Assembly: GCA_016933415.1 (NCBI GenBank)
Contig: JAFGAX010000033.1
Span: 1-37,315, forward strand
Direction of reading: 5' to 3'
DNA: 37,315 bases
Source of the DNA: a bacterium
GTDB lineage: Bacteria; Zhuqueibacterota; QNDG01; DTFT01
Position numbers and translations under genes: made by a program. Below, in pieces: positions 10,946 through 23,881 of this stretch. A model generated the notes under the pieces. It saw only the letters and a list, made by a program, of their open reading frames with translations. It ran no database searches and was not told the origin of the DNA. Positions within the stretch are counted from its first letter, which is position 1. Each line of letters starts with the position of its first letter.

Positions 10946-13900
10946 CTAACTTCTTGTTTTGCCTGTTTTTGAGAGGTCGATGTTGAGCTTTGAAGCGAGA
11001 TACTCGGAGGGAGACCGGCCGAATTGCTTGCGGAAACACCTGGAAAAATAGTTCAGATCATTGAATCCCACATGGTAGGCGATTTCAGATATTTTCATTT
11101 TCCTGTTGTCCAGAAGCTGGGCTGCAGCCTTGAGGCGGATGGACCGTATGAATTCGTGCACCGTCTGTCCCGTGAGGCTCCTGATTTTTCTGTACAGCTG
11201 GGTCCTGCTGATTCCAGCCTCCCGGCTGAGCGCGTCCGCATCCAGCTTCCAGTCCGACAGCCGATTTTCCACAATCTGGCGTGTGCGCTCGAGAAACCGC
11301 TCGTCCAGGCTCATCACCGGTGTTTCACCGGGTTCCGTCAGAATCTGTTTGCGGAAATGCGCTCTCAGCTTTTTTCTCGATTCCAGCAGATTGAAAACCC
11401 TTGCCGCGAGTTCCTTGGCGTCAAAAGGCTTGGGCAGGTAATCGTCCGCGCCGATCAGAATGCCCTTGATCTTGTGCTCGTGCTCGCTGTGCACGGTCAG
11501 AAGAAGCACGGGGATATGGCTTGTTTTCTCCTCGGTTTTGATTCTGCGGCACAGGTCGTATCCATTCAGTCCGGGCATCTCGAGATCACTGATCACGAGA
11601 TCCGGCACCGTGGAAATGGCCTTCTCGAGTCCTGTTTTTCCGTCCATTGCGGACAGCATGCGCACGGAAGCGCCGAAAAGATCCTGGATGTGTCTGTGCA
11701 TGTCCGGGTCGTCGTCCACGACCAGTATCAGCGGCGTGGATCTCGACGACTCGTCCTCCGAGTCGGGTGTTCCCGAACCGGTTTCCGATGGAACGGATGA
11801 CGCAATCTCCTCCCCCGGACCGGTTCCTGCGCCGTCCCCTGCGGATTCGGTTGCCGGTTCCGCCGGTCGCTCGAACACCATCACGTCCACCGGTATCAGC
11901 ACGGTGAAAACCGTGCCCTTTCCCTCCTCGCTGTCAACAGTCATCCGGCCCTGGTGCAGTTCGACCAGCTCATGCGCGAGGTGAAGGCCGATGCCCAGGC
12001 CCTGCTCACCCGACGGAGACGCGGATTCCGCGGGACCGGAGCGGTCGAACAGCCGCTCCAGGCGGGCCGCAGGAATGCCGACGCCCGTGTCCGCCACGCG
12101 GATTCGGAAGGTTTTCTCTATCTCCTCATCCTCCGCGAGATACTCCAGGTTCAGCGTGACGCTGCCTCCGTCCGGCGTGAACTTGAACGCATTGGACAGA
12201 AGATTGTAGACGATCTTGTCCAGCGCGTCCGGATCGAACCAGGTCAATCCGTATGAAATCGTGCTGTGAAACTGAAAGTCGATTCGGTGCAGGCTCGCAT
12301 ATTCCCGGAAGGAATGATACATGTCCTGCAGGAACCGGACCATGTCGCGCTGTTCGGTTTTCAGCCGGATTTCGGACGGTTCCGTTTTGTAGAATTCAAT
12401 AAACTGGTTCAGCAGGCGCGAGAGCCGCCTGGCGTTGCGTGCCGCCATTTCCAGCGTCCCCCGGAATGCCGCGTCCACGCGGCCCGTACGGATAAGATGG
12501 TCGAGAGGCCCGAGGATGAGCATGATCGGCGTGCGCAGTTCATGCGACACACTGCTGAAAAATCGGGATTTCATCCGGTCCGCTTCCACCAGTTTTTCGA
12601 ACTGAAGGTGCTCCATCTCCAGTTCGTGCTTCATTCTCTGCCGTTTCAGGCGGGCGCGGATAAACACCATGACCGCGCCGCCCGCGAACAGACCGTACAG
12701 AAAAAACGCGATCCAGGTTTTCCAGAACGGGGGCCTGATCCGGATACGGAGGGAGAGGCCCTGCTCGTTCCACACACCGTCGTTGTTCGCGGCTTTCACC
12801 CGGAACACGTAGCGGCCGGGATTCAGGTTGGTGTAGGTCGCGTGGTTCTGGGTGCCGACCTCGTTCCAGTCCTTCTCGAATCCCTCCATGCGGAAGGCGT
12901 ACCGGTTCCGCTCCGGATGCGTGAAATTCAGGGCCGTGAACTCGAACGAAAAAACGGACGCCCGGTGCGAAAGCGTCAGGTCCTGGGTCTCGTTGATCTG
13001 CACGCGAAGGGGTCCGTGCTTGCCGACCGGCACGGACCTGTTGAATATCCTGAAATCCGTGAACGCGATCTGCGGGGGATGCGGGTTCGGACGTATGCTG
13101 TCCGGATGGAACAGGACGAAGCCGTCCGCGCCGCCGAACAGCAGTTCGCCGTTTCGGGTCCGAAATGCGGCCTTCAGGTTGAACTGGCCCCCGGGCGCTT
13201 CCGCGAGGCTCTCGAATGTCCGGAACAGCGCAGCGTCCGGATGGAAGCGCGTGACTCCTGCCAGGGAACTGATCCACAGGTTGCTCTTTCCGTCGCCCTG
13301 CACGGCCAGGATGAAGTCGTTGGGGAGCCCGTCCTTCGCGCGATAGGTCCGGAACCGTCCGGTTTCCCGGTCCAGCAGTCCAAGTCCGTTCGAAGTCCCG
13401 ACCCAGAACCGGCCCTGACCGTCTTCGAACATCGAATGGATCCGGTTGTCGCTCAGGCCCGCTGTGTCCGCGGGATTCTGCGTGTATCGGATGAAGCGCC
13501 CCTTCCCCGGCCTGTCCTCCTGAAACCGGGCCAGACCGTCGGACAAAGTGCCCACCCACAATGTGCCTCTGCGGTCCCGGTACAGGGAGAATACGATGTT
13601 GCTCTGCAGGCTGGCCGGGTCAGCGGGGTCCGTCTGATACGTCGTCATCGCGCCGGTCCGCGAATCGACCAGCGTGAGCCCGCCTCCGTATGTGCCCACC
13701 GCCATCCGGCCCCTGCCGGCATTGGCGAGCGCAAACACGTGGTTGCTCTGCAGGCCGCTGTTCCCGGAATTCAACCGCGTGAATCCATTCCCGCCCGTGT
13801 CCAGAATGCTGATTCCGCCGTTCCAGGTGCCGGCCCAGAGTCGGCCCGCATCATCAGTCGCCAAAGACAGCACGGCATTGCTGCCGAGGCTTCGCGGATT

Positions 13901-15160
13901 CCGGGGGTCGTGCCGGTATGAACGGAACGCCTGTTTCCGCCGGTTGTAATGGTTCAGCCCTCCGCCGTCCGTCGCGATCCAGAAATCGCCGAAGGCGTCC
14001 TCCAGAAACGCTGTCACAATGCCGCCGCTGAACCCGCTTCCCGGAAAACCGTGGATGCGGCTGAACTTGAGCTCGTTCGGGTCGATGCAGTTGACGCCGG
14101 CCATCCACGTTCCGAACCACAGTCTGTCCTGGCGGTCTTCGAATATGGACCACACGGAATTGCCGCTGATCGAGAATTCCTCGTCGCGCCTGCTTTTGAA
14201 CCTGTGATGGAGACGTCTTTCCCGGTCGTAGACCGCGAGCCCGTTGTCCTCCATGCTCACCCACAGCCGTCCCTGCCTGTCCTCGCAAAGCGCCAGAATC
14301 CGGTACCGGCTCAGAAAGTCATTCTCGCCGATGGAATCCGTGAAACGCCTCATCCGGATCGGGCCGGACCCGTTTCTGAAAACCTGAAGACCGGCCTGAT
14401 TGGTGGCCACCCAAAAGGTTCCGGAGTCGTCCTGAATCATCTCCTGAAAGTTCCAGAACTCATTTCCGATCGGATCCGCGTTTCCGTTGAAAACCTGCTC
14501 CAGCCGGCCGGCCGGCGAATCGAGACGGTACAATTCCCGCCACCGTCCGTACCAGATGCGTCCTTCATGGTCCTCATAAATGAAATTATGGTAATTCGCA
14601 GGATCGCCCGGCGCCGCCGGAACGTCCGGTAGAAAACGCTGGAAATCATTCGTATCCGGCCTGTACAGGCACAGGTCGTCCGCCGCGACCCAGATCCTTC
14701 CCTGCCGGTCGGCCCGGACGTCGCTGACCGTGCTTCCCGCCAGGCTGTTGGCTTGTTCGGATGCGTGATACTGGACGAAGCGGTCCAACGACCGGTCATA
14801 GCGGTTCAGTCCGTTCTCGGTCGCTATCCACAGGTCGCCTTTTGTGTCCTCCGCGATCTTGCGGATATGGTCGTTCGACAGGCTCGTGCTGTCGTCCGGA
14901 TCATGGACGTAAATGCGGATGTTGATGCCGTCGTAACGGTTCAGGCCTCTCGGCGTCCCGATCCACAGGAATCCCTGATGATCCTGGAAAATGCATTCGG
15001 CTGTGTTGTAGGAGAGGTTTTTGGAAAGGCTGCGGAAGCGAAAATTTTCGGAAGGTTCCCGGGGACGCGATAATCCGGAAGCGTTTCCCCCGCAGATGCA
15101 GGTCTGCGCCGGGGAGACGCATAATGCAAAAATCAGAATGATCTTGAGGGAGATTTTCAT
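10946..15160 (-). CDS. Hybrid two-component system regulator (sensor, kinase, receiver and AraC domains in one chain)
   Basis: A 1404-residue one-protein signalling system. Start ATG 15160 (MKISLKIILIFALC...) gives a signal peptide and is preceded by GGGAG. I count 14 propeller motifs of the type LWIGT..GLNRYD across ~60-690, enough for two seven-bladed propellers, followed by a Y_Y_Y domain (~720-810), one membrane helix (~816-834), a HisKA helix with SVSHELRTP (His873), an ATPase domain with NLLSNAFKFT, DTGVGIP and GLGIGL, an acidic/Ser linker, a receiver with VISDLEMPG (Asp1192), and a C-terminal AraC helix-turn-helix (IAYHVGFNDLNYFSRCF). In Bacteroides such proteins sense oligosaccharides in the periplasm and activate polysaccharide-utilization genes. 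Here it lies directly upstream of the TonB receptor (148 bp gap) on the same strand, which predicts control of the receptor-to-CBM gene set. All catalytic motifs look intact. Confidence 0.96.
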   Translation of the reverse strand: MKISLKIILIFALCVSPAQTCICGGNASGLSRPREPSENFRFRSLSKNLSYNTAECIFQDHQGFLWIGTPRGLNRYDGINIRIYVHDPDDSTSLSNDHIRKIAEDTKGDLWIATENGLNRYDRSLDRFVQYHASEQANSLAGSTVSDVRADRQGRIWVAADDLCLYRPDTNDFQRFLPDVPAAPGDPANYHNFIYEDHEGRIWYGRWRELYRLDSPAGRLEQVFNGNADPIGNEFWNFQEMIQDDSGTFWVATNQAGLQVFRNGSGPIRMRRFTDSIGENDFLSRYRILALCEDRQGRLWVSMEDNGLAVYDRERRLHHRFKSRRDEEFSISGNSVWSIFEDRQDRLWFGTWMAGVNCIDPNELKFSRIHGFPGSGFSGGIVTAFLEDAFGDFWIATDGGGLNHYNRRKQAFRSYRHDPRNPRSLGSNAVLSLATDDAGRLWAGTWNGGISILDTGGNGFTRLNSGNSGLQSNHVFALANAGRGRMAVGTYGGGLTLVDSRTGAMTTYQTDPADPASLQSNIVFSLYRDRRGTLWVGTLSDGLARFQEDRPGKGRFIRYTQNPADTAGLSDNRIHSMFEDGQGRFWVGTSNGLGLLDRETGRFRTYRAKDGLPNDFILAVQGDGKSNLWISSLAGVTRFHPDAALFRTFESLAEAPGGQFNLKAAFRTRNGELLFGGADGFVLFHPDSIRPNPHPPQIAFTDFRIFNRSVPVGKHGPLRVQINETQDLTLSHRASVFSFEFTALNFTHPERNRYAFRMEGFEKDWNEVGTQNHATYTNLNPGRYVFRVKAANNDGVWNEQGLSLRIRIRPPFWKTWIAFFLYGLFAGGAVMVFIRARLKRQRMKHELEMEHLQFEKLVEADRMKSRFFSSVSHELRTPIMLILGPLDHLIRTGRVDAAFRGTLEMAARNARRLSRLLNQFIEFYKTEPSEIRLKTEQRDMVRFLQDMYHSFREYASLHRIDFQFHSTISYGLTWFDPDALDKIVYNLLSNAFKFTPDGGSVTLNLEYLAEDEEIEKTFRIRVADTGVGIPAARLERLFDRSGPAESASPSGEQGLGIGLHLAHELVELHQGRMTVDSEEGKGTVFTVLIPVDVMVFERPAEPATESAGDGAGTGPGEEIASSVPSETGSGTPDSEDESSRSTPLILVVDDDPDMHRHIQDLFGASVRMLSAMDGKTGLEKAISTVPDLVISDLEMPGLNGYDLCRRIKTEEKTSHIPVLLLTVHSEHEHKIKGILIGADDYLPKPFDAKELAARVFNLLESRKKLRAHFRKQILTEPGETPVMSLDERFLERTRQIVENRLSDWKLDADALSREAGISRTQLYRKIRSLTGQTVHEFIRSIRLKAAAQLLDNRKMKISEIAYHVGFNDLNYFSRCFRKQFGRSPSEYLASKLNIDLSKTGKTRS

Positions 15161-15373
15161 GCTCTCCCGATCCGGACGGAGGTTCTGTTCATGCGGGCGG
15201 ACATCCGGATCGCGCTCTCCGGTCCGCTGTCCCAAGCCCTGATTGAAAAGAGTCAACAGCGCATTTAACGCGATTTCCGGGTCCGGTCATTCTGGATAAA
15301 CCCTGATAAAATTTATACTTTTTTATGTAAAATCAAAACATTTTTCCTCCGGTTTCATCCGGAGCCGGGGCAT
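15161..15373. other. Intergenic region upstream of the HTCS gene, with an AT-rich core
   Basis: These 213 bp separate the FecR-gene terminator from the HTCS start. The centre (about 15296-15350) is strongly AT-rich and on the minus strand holds GTATAAATTTTATC, a possible -10 region, but I see no matching -35 at 16-18 nt. No gene or RNA was recognised. It presumably contains the HTCS promoter. Confidence 0.35.
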
Positions 15374-15404
15374 AAAAAATCCCGCGGGGTTTGGCGCCCG
15401 CGGG
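15374..15404 (-). terminator. Intrinsic terminator after the FecR-domain gene
   Basis: Reading the minus strand, CCCGCGGG, an 8-nt loop, CCCGCGGG and then ATTTTTT form a GC-rich hairpin followed by a U-run. It begins about 25 nt past the stop codon of the FecR-domain gene, so it closes the dnaN-to-FecR gene series. Confidence 0.9.
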
Positions 15405-15429
15405 GTTCGGTACCGTTGTGAACGGATAT

Positions 15430-16215
15430 TTATCTTCGTTTCTGCATCATATTCTGAAGCCTGCGCCGGCGGATGTCCTCGCGCTGTTTGTTCCACTTCA
15501 CCCAGTCGGTCTGTTCGTCCATGTCCTTTCTCGAAAACTGCCCCATGGAGAGCACGATGCCCTTCGGGTCGATCGTGATCTGCTGCATGCCTTTGACAAT
15601 GTACACCCATTCATCCAGGGAGACTTCATGCGGCCCCTGAATGGGCTTCGGGCCTTCGATTTGCACGGGCTTTCCGGAGGGCTTCGGCGCCGGATCGGGC
15701 TTATCCGTTGCATTGGTGATCTTGACCTCGCCCTTGTACACCTTGAGCTGGGTGGTCGAGTCGTCCCGTACGGTCATGCGGAGCACGGTACCGGTGATGG
15801 CCGCGGCCGCCACGGGCGCGGAGATGTCGAATTCCGTTTCCGCGTTCACCTCGTGCACCGACGCCCAGATCTCGCCTTTTTCCACCTTGATGGATGTGGC
15901 CAGCTTCTTCTCCCGGGTCTCCTCGTAGAGGCGGTCGAGCAGAACCGTGGTCTTGGGCGCGAGCCGGATGATGTCCAGCTGGATGAGCTCGAGTTCGGCA
16001 CGCGACATCTGATAGGTGCGCACCTTCTCCCCGGAATTCACGGCGGACTGGACGGGCGCGTTCTCCCACATCTCAGAGGCGGGCGGCTGCTTTCTCACCT
16101 CGCCCTCGGCGAAGGCCACGATTCCCTTACGCTCCTCGCTCCGCGAGAAGCGGCCGTCCGCCAGCATCACCATCGCGGGCAGAACCAGCCAGAACACCCA
16201 CTTGAAGCGCCTCAT
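15430..16215 (-). CDS. FecR-domain exported protein
   Basis: A 261-residue protein with an N-terminal signal peptide or anchor (MRRFKWVFWLVLPAMVML). Residues ~50-165 match the FecR fold in outline: AVNSGEKVRTYQMSRAEL, LDIIRLAPKTTVLL, KVEKGEIWASV, FDISAPVAAAAITGTVLRM and TQLKVYKGEVKI. This is the stand-alone, periplasmic type of FecR domain, not an anti-sigma factor, because there is no cytoplasmic helix bundle and no sigma gene nearby. A Pro/Lys-rich segment follows, and the C-terminus is very basic (KQREDIRRRRLQNMMQKRR). Its ATG overlaps the upstream stop as ATGA, so translation is probably coupled to that gene. Function is unknown; FecR domains of this class may bind peptidoglycan or envelope polymers. 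Confidence 0.85.
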   Translation of the reverse strand: MRRFKWVFWLVLPAMVMLADGRFSRSEERKGIVAFAEGEVRKQPPASEMWENAPVQSAVNSGEKVRTYQMSRAELELIQLDIIRLAPKTTVLLDRLYEETREKKLATSIKVEKGEIWASVHEVNAETEFDISAPVAAAAITGTVLRMTVRDDSTTQLKVYKGEVKITNATDKPDPAPKPSGKPVQIEGPKPIQGPHEVSLDEWVYIVKGMQQITIDPKGIVLSMGQFSRKDMDEQTDWVKWNKQREDIRRRRLQNMMQKRR

Positions 16216-17636
16216 CGCTTCGCTCCCCCCACGTTTTCTTCGGGATAATAACGGCTGTAGATCAGATCCACCAGCTTGATGGCTTCGCGCGAGAAGGGAT
16301 CCACGTCGCGCTTGAACAGTTCATTGTCGATGAGAATCTTTGCCACGCGCCAGCTTTCCGCGTCCTCCAGTTTCTGCATCAGCTTTCCATACGCGTCACC
16401 GTCCCCGTTGAAGAGCTTTTTCACGAAGACTTTCTCGGTTTTCTCGTCGATCAGGGACCGGAAAGACGGCCGTCTGGAGTCTTTCCCGCGGCGTTCCGAG
16501 ATCAGTTCCGCATCGATGGACTCGAGCGAATCCGCATCCGCGGTTTCCGGCTCTTCCTCCTCTTCCGCCTGTTCCCGACGGATGATCCGCATCGGTTTCT
16601 TCACGGATTTCGGTTTTTCGACGGGCTCGAACACCTCTTTCTCGGGCTCGACCGCCAGCAGGGGCGTTTCCTCGCCGAGCACTGAATCGAGATCCCAGGA
16701 TTCTTCGAGCTTTTCCGGCTCCTCGATCACGACCGGTTCAGGCGCGGGTGCCGGGGCCGGCGCAGGAGCCGGTTTTCTGTCTGCGGGCCGTACCGGGTCG
16801 GCCGGTTCGGGCCGTTCAGCCCGTTCCACTGCGGAAGCCGCGGCGGCCGGAGACGAGCCGAAAGTCTCTTTCAGTTCCAGATAGCGTTTGATGGTCATTT
16901 CAAGATCGGCCGCGTCAAAGTCTTCCTTGCCCAGCTTGACTTCGACTTCAACGGCCTTGCGGAAAGATGTCATGGACCGGTCTTCGAGGAATTCCCTCAA
17001 AACGTCTCCGCCGACACGGCCGATTTCCTCGCCTTTGGTTTCGGACACAAAATCAGTGAGAACGGAAAAATCATGCAGGACCAGTTTCACCGGATCCTGG
17101 CCCGCCATTTTCCGAACGACATCCGCAGCCAGGCCGGGATATTCGTCTTTCTCAAGTTCCGTATACCCCAGCCTGCGGCATTCCTTGACGACATTTTCCG
17201 AATAGGGAAGCACTTTGGAGAAGGGGTCGAGCCGCTTTTCGAGGTCGAATATGTCGATTCTGTCCTTTTTCTCATAGAGGAGAGTGCCCATGGTCCGGAC
17301 CGGCTTGACCAGGTAATCGAGACGCAAAACCAGCGCCTGGCGGAGGATTTCTTCCACTTCCTCCTGGCGGAATATGGCGGTTTCACGGAAAACATCGAGT
17401 ATCTGACCTCTCAGGCCCTCGATATCCTCGGGTTTCAGGTCGAAATGAGGCGTGGATTTGAAGCTCAGGGGGGATTCAGAAATCAGGTATTCCTCAACCC
17501 GGTTTCTGAAAATCACTTTGATGAATGGAGGAATGGCATTGTCCGCCTGAATGCGGCCGAACCGGACTTTGTCTGATCCGCCCATGATTCTTTTTTTCAG
17601 GCTCACGACCAGGACAACGGTTTCATTTTCCCACAT
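16212..17636 (-). CDS. Unidentified protein with N- and C-terminal domains joined by a Pro/Ala/Glu-rich linker
   Basis: A 474-residue protein I do not recognise. I prefer ATG 17636 (MWENETVVLVV...) since AAAGGTG lies upstream; the ORF track starts at a TTG (17660) overlapping the archease stop, and ATG 17585 lacks a ribosome site. No signal peptide or membrane helix is visible, so it is probably cytoplasmic. Residues 1-~255 are a mixed alpha/beta, charged domain (for example GLRGQILDVFRETAIFRQEE). Residues ~262-390 are low complexity: an alternating Pro-Ala run, then long Glu-rich tracts. Residues ~392-474 form a compact helical domain (VFVKKLFNGDGDAYGKLMQK...IKLVDLIYSRYYPEE). It follows archease by 13 bp and overlaps the FecR gene by 4 bp, suggesting a functional pair with the exported FecR protein. 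Confidence 0.8.
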   Translation of the reverse strand: MWENETVVLVVSLKKRIMGGSDKVRFGRIQADNAIPPFIKVIFRNRVEEYLISESPLSFKSTPHFDLKPEDIEGLRGQILDVFRETAIFRQEEVEEILRQALVLRLDYLVKPVRTMGTLLYEKKDRIDIFDLEKRLDPFSKVLPYSENVVKECRRLGYTELEKDEYPGLAADVVRKMAGQDPVKLVLHDFSVLTDFVSETKGEEIGRVGGDVLREFLEDRSMTSFRKAVEVEVKLGKEDFDAADLEMTIKRYLELKETFGSSPAAAASAVERAERPEPADPVRPADRKPAPAPAPAPAPEPVVIEEPEKLEESWDLDSVLGEETPLLAVEPEKEVFEPVEKPKSVKKPMRIIRREQAEEEEEPETADADSLESIDAELISERRGKDSRRPSFRSLIDEKTEKVFVKKLFNGDGDAYGKLMQKLEDAESWRVAKILIDNELFKRDVDPFSREAIKLVDLIYSRYYPEENVGGAKR

Positions 17637-17649
17637 AACCGGCACCTTT

Positions 17650-18090
17650 CTAAACGTCAAAAAGGACGTTCGCTTCCCACCATGGGCCGTTTTTTTTCGC
17701 GTACAGCCCGTGTCGAGTTACCGCTTTGATTTCTTTGCAAATATCGTGCCTTGTGGGGTCTCGTTTCTCTCCATGCAGGGAAGCCTGTATTTGAAGAGTC
17801 TTTTCATTTTTTAATGAAAAATTATCCTTTTCAATTTGGAATCGTTTGAATAATAATGCCTCATTTTCCATAAAATAAAGAATTTCCCGGAGCCACTGAA
17901 GAAGCAGTTCATCCATGGTTTCCGCTTCCAGTTCCAATTTCCGGACTTCCTTCTCTTCCACGGTATCGGGATTATAGGTCTGGGAAACCATGCCCAGAGC
18001 CGCCTCTTCAAGAAGCTCCTTCTGGTTCTGGCCCCAGGCCTTGACCCCGACATCCGCCGTATGCTCGACCGGCTTGTAGCCTCCTGGCAA
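17650..18090 (-). CDS. Archease family protein
   Basis: A 146-residue protein with the archease signature: EHTADVGVKAWG near the N-terminus, LLLQWLREILY in the middle, and KAVTRHGLYAKK plus the C-terminal VLFDV. Conserved Asp residues in HTAD and FD are likely metal ligands. Archease activates the RNA ligase RtcB in tRNA splicing and RNA repair in archaea and eukaryotes; no rtcB is in this window. There is no ATG upstream of the conserved motif, and the start appears to be TTG at 18090, with a strong GAGGAGG ribosome site that overlaps the last codons of gyrA (5 bp gap). Translation is thus probably coupled to gyrA. Confidence 0.9.
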   Translation of the reverse strand: MPGGYKPVEHTADVGVKAWGQNQKELLEEAALGMVSQTYNPDTVEEKEVRKLELEAETMDELLLQWLREILYFMENEALLFKRFQIEKDNFSLKNEKTLQIQASLHGEKRDPTRHDICKEIKAVTRHGLYAKKNGPWWEANVLFDV

Positions 18091-18095
18091 GCGGG

Positions 18096-20525
18096 TTATT
18101 CCTCCTCTCGAACGACCCGCGCGACATCCGCAACGCGGTCCCCGCCCTTGAGCCGGATGAGACGCACGCCCTGCGTGTTCCGGCCGGTGACGCCGATGTC
18201 CTGCATCTGCTGGCGTAAAATCTGGCCTTTGGCCGATATCAGGAGCAGGTCGTCCGTGTCCAGCACGTCCATGAGCGCGATCATCCGGCCGACTTTTTCG
18301 CTGACCTTTAATGTGATGATGCCCTTGCCGCCCCTGGACGTCACCCGGTAGTCCGAAATGTCGGAACGCTTGCCGAATCCATTCTCTGTGACTACCAGTA
18401 AAGTCCCCTCGCGGCGGATCACGACCATGCCGATCACCTCATCCTTGCCCTGGAGGGTGATTCCGCGGACGCCGGCCGCGGCTCGGCCCATCTCCCGCAC
18501 CTCGGATTCATGGAACCGGATCGCCTGCCCGTCTCGGGTGCCGAGCACGATGTCCTGGCCCCCCTCGGTGAGCTTGACTTCGATGAGCCGGTCATCCTTG
18601 CCGAGCCCGATGGCCTGTATGCCCTTGCGCATGGGGCGACTGAACGCGGCCAGGCTGGTCTTCTTGACCTGACCGCGCCGGGTGGCCATGAACAGGTTTT
18701 TCTTTTCGTCGAAATCCTTGACCGGGACCACGGCCGAAATCTTCTCGCCGGACTGCACGGAGAGCAGGTTGATGATGGCCCGGCCGCGCGATCCCTTGCC
18801 CACCTGCGGGATCTCATGCACCTTGATCCAGAGACATCGTCCCTGATCCGTGAAAAAGAGGATGTAATGGTGCGTGGACGCGATGAAGAGGTGCTCGACG
18901 GAGTCCTCGTCGCCCGTGTCGGCGCCGATGACCCCCTTCCCGCCCCGGCCCTGACGCTTGTACCCGGAGACGGGGAACCGCTTGATGTATCCCGAATGGG
19001 AGATGGTGATCACCATGTCCTCTTCGGCGATGATGTCCTCGATCGAAAAATCGTCCACCTTGCCGACGATTTCCGTGCGCCGTTCGTCTCCGTACTTCTC
19101 CTTGATCGCGAGCAGTTCCTCCCGGATCACCTCCATCTGCTTGGCCTTGTTCGAGAGAATGCTCTTCAGCCGCTCGATTTCCTTGAGCACTGCGGCGTAT
19201 TCCTCCTCGATCTTCCTGCGCTCGAGGCCGGTGAGCCGCTGGAGCCGCATGTCGAGAATCGCGTTGGCCTGCAGTTCCGAAAAACGGAACCGCTTCATCA
19301 TGGCTTCGCGCGCGTCGTCCGGCGTCTTCGATTTCTTGATGAGCTGAATGATCTCGTCGATGTGGTCGAGCGCCTTTTTCAGGCCCTCGAGGATATGGGC
19401 CCTCTTTTCGGCCTTGTCCAGCTCGAATTTCGTGCGCCGGATCACGATCTCGTGGCGGTGCGCGATGAATTTCTCGAGCATCTCCTTGAGATTCAGGACG
19501 CGGGGACGGCCCTCCACCAAGGCCAGCAGAATCACGCCGAACGTGGTCTGCATCTGGGTGTGAACGTAAAGCTGGTTCAGAACGACCTGCGCCTGCGCGT
19601 CCCGTTTCAGTTCGAGCACAATGCGCATGCCGTCGCGGTCGGATTCGTCGCGTATGTCGGAGATGCCCTCGATCTTCTTGTCCTTGACCAGGTCGGCGAT
19701 GGACGCGATCAGGTTCGACTTGTTGACCTGATAGGGGATCTCGTTGACGATGATCGCTTCCCGGCCGTTCTTACCCTTTTCCACGGCTGCGCGCGCCCGC
19801 ACGAGAAGACGGCCCCGGCCGGTCTTGTACGCCTCGAGAATGCCCTCGGTACCCGTAATGATGCCGCCGGTCGGGAAATCCGGACCCTTGACGATGCGCG
19901 ACAACGCCTCGATCGTCGTATCGGGCCTGCGAATGAGGGCCGCGAGCGCGTCCACCACTTCCGACAGATTGTGCGGCGGAATGTTGGTCGCCATGCCCAC
20001 CGCGATGCCCGACGCGCCGTTCACCAGCAGGTTGGGGTAGGCGCAGGGCATCACCGAGGGCTCCTGCAGGGATTCGTCGAAATTGGGGACGAAATCGACC
20101 GTCTGTTTGTCGATGTCCGCCAGGATCTCCTCGGCGACGGCGGTGAGACGGGCTTCGGTGTACCGCATGGCCGCCGCGGAGTCGCCGTCGACGGAGCCGA
20201 AATTGCCCTGACCGTCCACGAGGGGATAGCGCATCGAAAAGTCCTGCACCATCCGTACCATGGCGTCATACACGGCCGTGTCTCCATGCGGATGGTATTT
20301 GCCGAGCACGTCTCCGACGATACGGGCGGATTTCCGGTAGGGCCGGTTGGGATGCAGGCCCAGTTCCGTCATGCCGTAGAGGATGCGCCGGTGCACGGGC
20401 TTCAGCCCGTCCCGGACATCGGGCAGCGCCCGCGCCACGATGACCGACATGGAGTAGTCGATGTACGAATTGCGCATCTCCTCCTCGATGTACACGGGGA
20501 CGATGCGGTCGCGTTTTTTCTGCAT
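18096..20525 (-). CDS. gyrA: DNA gyrase subunit A
   Basis: An 809-residue gyrase A subunit, which cuts and rejoins DNA during negative supercoiling in complex with GyrB. The catalytic Tyr122 lies in MRYTEARLT, exactly as in the E. coli numbering. The quinolone-contact region reads [10 protein letters not shown], with Thr at position 83 and Asp at 87; Thr83 occurs naturally in many bacteria and is not by itself evidence of acquired resistance. The C-terminal pinwheel contains the GyrA-box form QGRGGKG, which separates it from ParC. The end is acidic (VREEE). The gene follows gyrB after 36 bp and precedes archease by 5 bp. Length is typical of shorter GyrA proteins. Confidence 0.98.
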
Positions 20526-20561: not shown

Positions 20562-22758
<2,197 letters not shown>

Positions 22759-22762
22759 GCTT

Positions 22763-23881
22763 CTATGAACTCAATTTAATGGGCATCAGAAGCATTTCAA
22801 ATTCTTCGCCCGGCATCTGTTCGGCCGGAGTGACCAGGGCGGCGTTCATGGGGCTTTTCAGGTGAAATGTGGCCGCTTCGGTGTCGATCTGTTTCAGTAT
22901 GTCCATGACGTACATCGCATTGTATCCTATCTCCATGTCGTCTTCGGCGTACTGAACCGTCAATTCCTCCTTGGCCTCGCCTCCGACGTCAAGGTCTTCG
23001 GATTGCACGGTCAGTCTGTCTTTCGCGACGGAGAACCGCACCTGATGGGTGAAGGCGTTTGAAAAAAGCGACACTCGCTTCACGGCCGAACTCAGAAAAT
23101 TTCGGTCAACGGTCATCTGTTTTTTATTGTCCGAAGGAATGACGCGCTCGTAATCGGGATACTGCCCGTCTACAAGACGGGTGAAAAGTGTAGTGCCGCC
23201 GAAAATGAAGCAGAGCATCTTTTCCTGAACGATCATTCGGGTCGTTCCCTCTCCGGAGATGTTTTTGACTACGAGCTGGGCCGCCTTCGGGGGTATGATC
23301 AGGTTCACGGGCTTCTGTTTGGATTTGAAGTTCCGGTCCACGATTTTGGAAAGGCGGTGGCCGTCCGTGGCCACCATTCTGAATTCATTGGCCGTGATCT
23401 GAACGTAGACGCCCATCAGGGCCGGCCTCAGTTCGTCCGAGGATACTGCAAAAAGAGTCTTGCTGAACATCCGGTGGAGGCGGCCGTTGTCCATTTCAAA
23501 ATAGGTGTCGGAAGTGCTTTTGGGAATTTCGGGAAAATTGTCCTTGGAGATGCCCGATATCTGGTAATATCCCTGATCGGTCGTCATTTTCACTTTATGG
23601 TTTTTGTCGACTTCGAAACGGATCGCGATGTTGGGCATGGAACGGATCATCTCGATGAGAACGCGGGCCGGGAGAGCAACGGCTCCGGTTTTTTCGATTT
23701 TTTCGGGCGCGGTCTGAGTCGTGACCGAAACCTCCAGATCGGTTCCGGTGAGCCGGAGGACCTCCTCGTCCAGTTCGAAGAACACGTTCTCAAGCACCGG
23801 TGTTGCGGATTTGGCGGGAACGACGCCCGAAACCTTCTGCAAACACTGAAAAAGGGTTTCTTGCGAGATCGTGAACTTCAT
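22763..23881 (-). CDS. dnaN: DNA polymerase III beta sliding clamp
   Basis: A 372-residue clamp with three repeated domains. Recognisable parts are the N-terminus MKFTISQETLFQCLQKVSGVV, DLEVSVTTQ, MVATDGHRLSKI, and the C-terminal MDILKQIDTEAATFHLKSPMNAALVTP ending MPIKLSS, the usual beta-clamp tail. The clamp encircles DNA and holds replicative polymerase on its template. A good ribosome site (AAGGAG) precedes ATG 23881. A 301 bp AT-rich spacer separates it from dnaA, so it probably has its own promoter. Confidence 0.98.
   Translation of the reverse strand: MKFTISQETLFQCLQKVSGVVPAKSATPVLENVFFELDEEVLRLTGTDLEVSVTTQTAPEKIEKTGAVALPARVLIEMIRSMPNIAIRFEVDKNHKVKMTTDQGYYQISGISKDNFPEIPKSTSDTYFEMDNGRLHRMFSKTLFAVSSDELRPALMGVYVQITANEFRMVATDGHRLSKIVDRNFKSKQKPVNLIIPPKAAQLVVKNISGEGTTRMIVQEKMLCFIFGGTTLFTRLVDGQYPDYERVIPSDNKKQMTVDRNFLSSAVKRVSLFSNAFTHQVRFSVAKDRLTVQSEDLDVGGEAKEELTVQYAEDDMEIGYNAMYVMDILKQIDTEAATFHLKSPMNAALVTPAEQMPGEEFEMLLMPIKLSS

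Follow-up and report, generated by a model that had tools for sequence, protein, structure and literature searches.

Gene series at the locus

The window, i.e. the whole stretch of 37,315 nucleotides that was analysed, comes from a metagenome-assembled genome of the Zhuqueibacterota, the name proposed for the uncultured KSB1 phylum (PMC11683472). On its minus strand it carries, in this order, dnaA, dnaN, dciA, gyrB, gyrA, archease, the gene of a 474-residue cytoplasmic protein (called here U474) and the gene of an exported FecR-domain protein (Table 1). The first-pass annotation had described the last two as overlapping by 4 bp behind archease, inside a gyrase and replication gene series. Both statements were confirmed, the former by the open reading frames, the ATGA junction and the PF04773 match, the latter by domain searches which identified archease, gyrA, gyrB, dnaN and dnaA. 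The presence of archease between gyrA and U474 is confined to the order of the window.

Table 1. Features of the gyrase gene series and of its flank in the window
Feature	Position	Strand	Evidence and remarks
dnaA	24183..25580	(-)	Confirmed by domain search; context
dnaN	22763..23881	(-)	Confirmed by domain search; context
dciA, helicase-loader gene	22483..22758	(-)	Open reading frame; PF05258 match at 22492-22749, E 3.2e-17
gyrB	20562..22502	(-)	Confirmed by domain search; context
gyrA	18096..20525	(-)	Confirmed by domain search; context
Archease	17650..18090	(-)	PF01951, E 2.4e-38; between gyrA and U474
U474, 474-aa cytoplasmic protein, family undescribed as far as libraries show	16212..17636	(-)	Open reading frame; orthologues found
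U474 N-domain, residues 1-262	16851..17636	(-)	AlphaFold pLDDT 89.7, pTM 0.82
U474 disordered acidic linker, residues 263-389	16470..16850	(-)	pLDDT <50; net charge -15
Weaker linker motif WDLDSVL, residues 314-320	16677..16697	(-)	Related W/F-x-(L/I/F) stretches in 9/10 members of the order
Linker motif MRIIRR, residues 349-354	16575..16592	(-)	10/10 proteins of the order
U474 C-domain, residues 390-474	16215..16469	(-)	Most conserved part; 41/77 positions (390-466) invariant in the order
ATGA overlap (4 bp), U474 stop and FecR start	16212..16215	(-)	Sequence read
FecR-domain protein, exported, 261 aa	15430..16215	(-)	PF04773 at residues 64-165, E 1.1e-12
Intrinsic terminator 3' of FecR	15381..15404	(-)	Terminator scan; 8 G-C pairs, then ATTTTTT
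Large hybrid two-component regulator	10946-15256	(-)	Just past the FecR terminator

The regulator which follows the terminator contains Reg_prop, Y_Y_Y, HisKA, HATPase, receiver and AraC-type HTH domains. No recF gene is present between dnaN and dciA (22758-22766), and the same holds throughout the window's order, in whose 12 genomes the recF model TIGR00611 was not matched at any location (0/12); 25 of the 27 other genomes of the KSB1 phylum that were searched were positive. RecF seems to have been lost by this order. In one genome assembled into five contigs (G051), the gyrA match is divided into three pieces with internal stop codons (locus L137, G051:C5:2147514-2149927), which reflects either a sequencing error or a decayed gene.

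Translation signals and transcript

The U474 gene starts with ATG, preceded by an AG-rich stretch, 13 nt past the archease stop codon. The start codon of the FecR gene lies inside the ATGA overlap, with a Shine-Dalgarno-like, purine-rich GGGGGGAG just 5' of it, and in relatives from the same order the two genes overlap by 4 bp or 1 bp. A scan of positions 15000-18400 on the minus strand gave no terminator-like site from gyrA to FecR and a single strong one, which starts some 25 bases beyond the FecR stop codon, so the transcript probably ends at FecR; among 10 relatives from the order, 7 likewise have a strong terminator-like site no more than 150 bases beyond FecR. Promoter-like matches within archease (17806-17850) are weak and little above chance. 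These signals are most simply explained by one transcript that ends at FecR, and U474 and gyrA are probably co-transcribed in the KSB1 phylum.

Within the order, orthologues of U474 and FecR are roughly 39-57% identical, and less similar ones occur across the phylum with the genes arranged alike, so the arrangement is not due to chance. It is supported that U474 and FecR form a real, translationally coupled unit adjoining gyrA across the order of the window.

The FecR protein

The FecR protein begins with a signal-peptide-like segment, and PF04773 is its only Pfam match; no cytoplasmic anti-sigma part was found at its N-terminus, and no ECF sigma gene adjoins it, the flanks being U474 and the hybrid two-component regulator. 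It shares the FecR domain with the FecR regulators of ECF sigma factors, but differs from them in that neither a Pfam match to the anti-sigma part nor an adjacent sigma gene was found. A likeness to the secreted FecR-type proteins of Leptospira (Lsa33, LipL45) can be seen in the domain, the signal-peptide-like start and weak matches to both models, although the NCBIfam scores are far under the cut-offs.

Including the window's own protein, 41 close FecR orthologues were found in the phylum. Of these, 32 follow gyrA on its own strand at a distance of up to about 2.1 kb, three adjoin the end of U474 on contigs without gyrA, and the remaining six, all from one family (f17), are located elsewhere. 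The first-pass annotation had proposed that the pair be sought beside gyrA in relatives. It was indeed found there throughout the order and in several other families (23 genomes with both genes behind gyrA), but the pairing is not obligate: nine genomes have FecR behind gyrA without U474, and 23 have U474 behind gyrA without a close FecR (2 of them truncated by contig ends). Since each protein occurs without the other, they are best regarded as neighbours with separate histories. In family f17 U474 stays behind gyrA, whereas the orthologous FecR gene (about 47-50% identity), in contrast to that of the window, has neither gyrA nor U474 as a neighbour, and its setting is purely that of the envelope: directly downstream of it is a gene whose product, of about 1,090 residues, matches AsmA and DUF748, and in three genomes the two reading frames share 4 bp or 1 bp. 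Occurrence in a setting unrelated to replication was therefore observed for FecR in f17 and was not observed for U474. We infer that the secreted FecR protein is co-expressed with U474 by translational coupling in the window's order and has a separate role in the envelope.

Another FecR paralogue, less closely related (about 31-39% identity), is repeatedly found in a locus that also encodes the GTPase Der (L144, L145, L146, L147, L155). In several genomes this locus also includes a DUF512 radical-SAM/PDZ gene together with CsgG-like and FlgT_N-like genes (Pfam search of L145 only).

U474 and gyrA in the KSB1 phylum

The phylum set comprised 82 KSB1 genomes, to which all distribution counts refer. 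U474, full-length or split between contigs, is present in 50 of them, and two more match only by stand-alone C-domains. In all genomes with U474 and gyrA on one contig (48/48; in the remaining 2 of the 50 a contig end interrupts the region), U474 follows gyrA immediately in the same orientation or, in the window's order, is separated from it by archease alone. The match-to-match gap amounts to 25-323 nt, or about 460-616 nt where archease intervenes. On the other hand, none of the three profiles gave a trace of U474 behind gyrA in several families represented by mostly near-complete genomes, so gyrase in general can do without the protein.

In many families the conserved gene order around gyrA extends past FecR into an opposite-strand patatin-Omp85 gene, bioY and sugar-recycling-kinase-like genes; named from sequence by eye, the block includes genes of a BadF-type and an AnmK-like kinase as well as a nucleotidyltransferase-like gene. 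Because the synteny of the whole region is so deep, adjacency alone is weak evidence of shared function. U474 may be considered a partial exception to this caveat, for it keeps its place behind gyrA even in family f17, where neither FecR nor bioY is found beside gyrA. The patatin-Omp85 gene, in which a patatin phospholipase is fused to POTRA and an Omp85 barrel, has itself long been retained next to the gyrA block (L149, L152, L156 and others), often with bioY and genes resembling sugar kinases after it.

Architecture and conservation of U474

The first-pass annotation had assigned to U474 two folded parts and a low-complexity linker. The folded parts are borne out by AlphaFold, which gave pLDDT of about 90 for residues 1-260 and about 388-467 of the full-length protein and values mostly below 50 for the linker in between (261-387); the linker is indeed of biased composition, rich in E, P and A, but it is not featureless, as an invariant MRIIRR lies inside it. 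The model of the N-domain, built from an alignment of 41 sequences, is all-helical apart from short strand bridges and is made up of six helix-strand-helix units, while the C-domain is confidently predicted to span about 80 residues. Most members of the family are acidic overall, and the highest 19-residue hydropathy of U474 is 0.85, so it has no membrane helix.

Within the order, invariant residues make up 53% of the C-domain (41/77), 19% of the N-domain (50/262) and 5% of the linker (6/127), where the six are precisely those of MRIIRR. Distant U474 proteins are devoid of this motif, and many of them carry an IExQPPGPYPSL-type motif directly N-terminal to the C-domain. The C-domain is also found as separate proteins of roughly 80-120 aa, chiefly in family f17, and can thus be regarded as a module. 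The stand-alone copies of f17 (L092, L093, L094, L095, L099) sometimes number more than one per genome, and some are located near genes resembling Na+/dicarboxylate symporters; comparison of the gene neighbourhoods of stand-alone C-domains for a functional clue gave nothing consistent, the settings being unrelated.

Searches for relatives of U474

No match common to the family was found in Pfam and PHROGs among the 23 members scanned, only scattered weak hits of single members, and U474 itself had no convincing match in NCBIfam. Plasmid sequences gave no credible match to U474, nor did PDB sequences to the family, whether whole or domain by domain. Fold searches against PDB and viral structures yielded nothing at E <= 0.001, the best PDB match of the N-domain having E 0.025 and TM 0.24 to the query. 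A literature search on KSB1 combined with gyrA found nothing relevant. As far as the Pfam, NCBIfam, PHROGs and PDB libraries show, U474 represents an undescribed family.

DciA (PF05258) resembles U474 in being the product of a small gene that is conserved in this replication cluster throughout the phylum; the two proteins are nevertheless unrelated, and since the window has dciA as a separate gene, a replacement of DciA by U474 was discarded.

Possible role of U474

It is tentatively proposed that U474 is a lineage-specific protein co-expressed with gyrase and acting as a tethered adaptor. Two folded parts, an acidic tether and a conserved peptide fit a protein which holds two partners: one conserved partner would be held by the C-domain and another by the N-domain and the linker motif. 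The two domains are joined by the long, acidic, disordered tether, which carries a conserved docking-like motif (in the order of the window, MRIIRR). Expression of U474 would be matched to that of gyrase, and its likeliest client would be gyrase or the replication machinery; a replication protein or gyrase is our best guess for one partner given the fixed place behind gyrA, a position expected of the gene of a gyrase-associated protein and seen in 48/48 assessable genomes. A narrower version, in which U474 is a new KSB1-specific gyrase accessory factor whose C-domain or MRIIRR motif would link gyrase with the replisome or with a different chromosome machine, appears rather unlikely. The adaptor proposal is rated about equal to an equally tentative one, that U474 is a passenger with an unrelated housekeeping function, left behind gyrA by vertical inheritance of a little-rearranged block. 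That the block continues into non-replication genes (patatin-Omp85, bioY, BadF-type, AnmK-like and nucleotidyltransferase-like), that FecR acts as just such a neighbour and that several families do without U474 all agree with the passenger explanation, and the stand-alone C-domains in unrelated neighbourhoods speak against an adaptor; however, U474 is never separated from gyrA in the 48 assessable genomes, including those with FecR and bioY away.

Two further explanations are considerably less probable. The first-pass annotation had suggested a link between the cell envelope and chromosome functions, which would make U474 and FecR one system coupling the envelope to chromosome supercoiling or replication. 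The 4-bp or 1-bp overlap in the order, the terminator common to both genes and the joint occurrence behind gyrA in several families are in line with it, but each partner is found behind gyrA without the other, FecR of f17 is coupled to an AsmA-like gene instead, and no physical contact is evident between a protein without a membrane helix and a secreted one. The separability of the two genes and the synteny into unrelated genes leave the proposed coupling unsupported, and we consider it improbable. Still more remote is the notion that U474 is a degenerate EF-hand protein, a calcium-sensor-like regulator of gyrase. The six helix-strand-helix units of the N-domain recall the paired helix-loop-helix units and short strand bridges of EF-hand proteins (calmodulin, CDPK, photoproteins), and nearly all the best PDB fold matches are EF-hand proteins, but these matches are not significant (best E 0.02-0.025, TM-scores <=0.41 among the matches listed), the calcium-loop pattern D-x-[DNS]-x-[DNSG] occurs in 0/41 homologues and no Pfam EF-hand family was matched by any U474 member scanned. 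With 0 PDB matches at E <= 0.001 and calcium ligands in 0/41 homologues, EF-hand membership of the N-domain was rejected.

The FecR case advises caution in deducing function from adjacency, as the link breaks in one family and FecR stands there with an envelope gene. Nonetheless, a family with no described relatives that is always beside gyrA across about 16 families of the phylum makes U474 a fair candidate for an undiscovered partner of gyrase or replication, and it offers a short list of targets: two domains and one six-residue motif.
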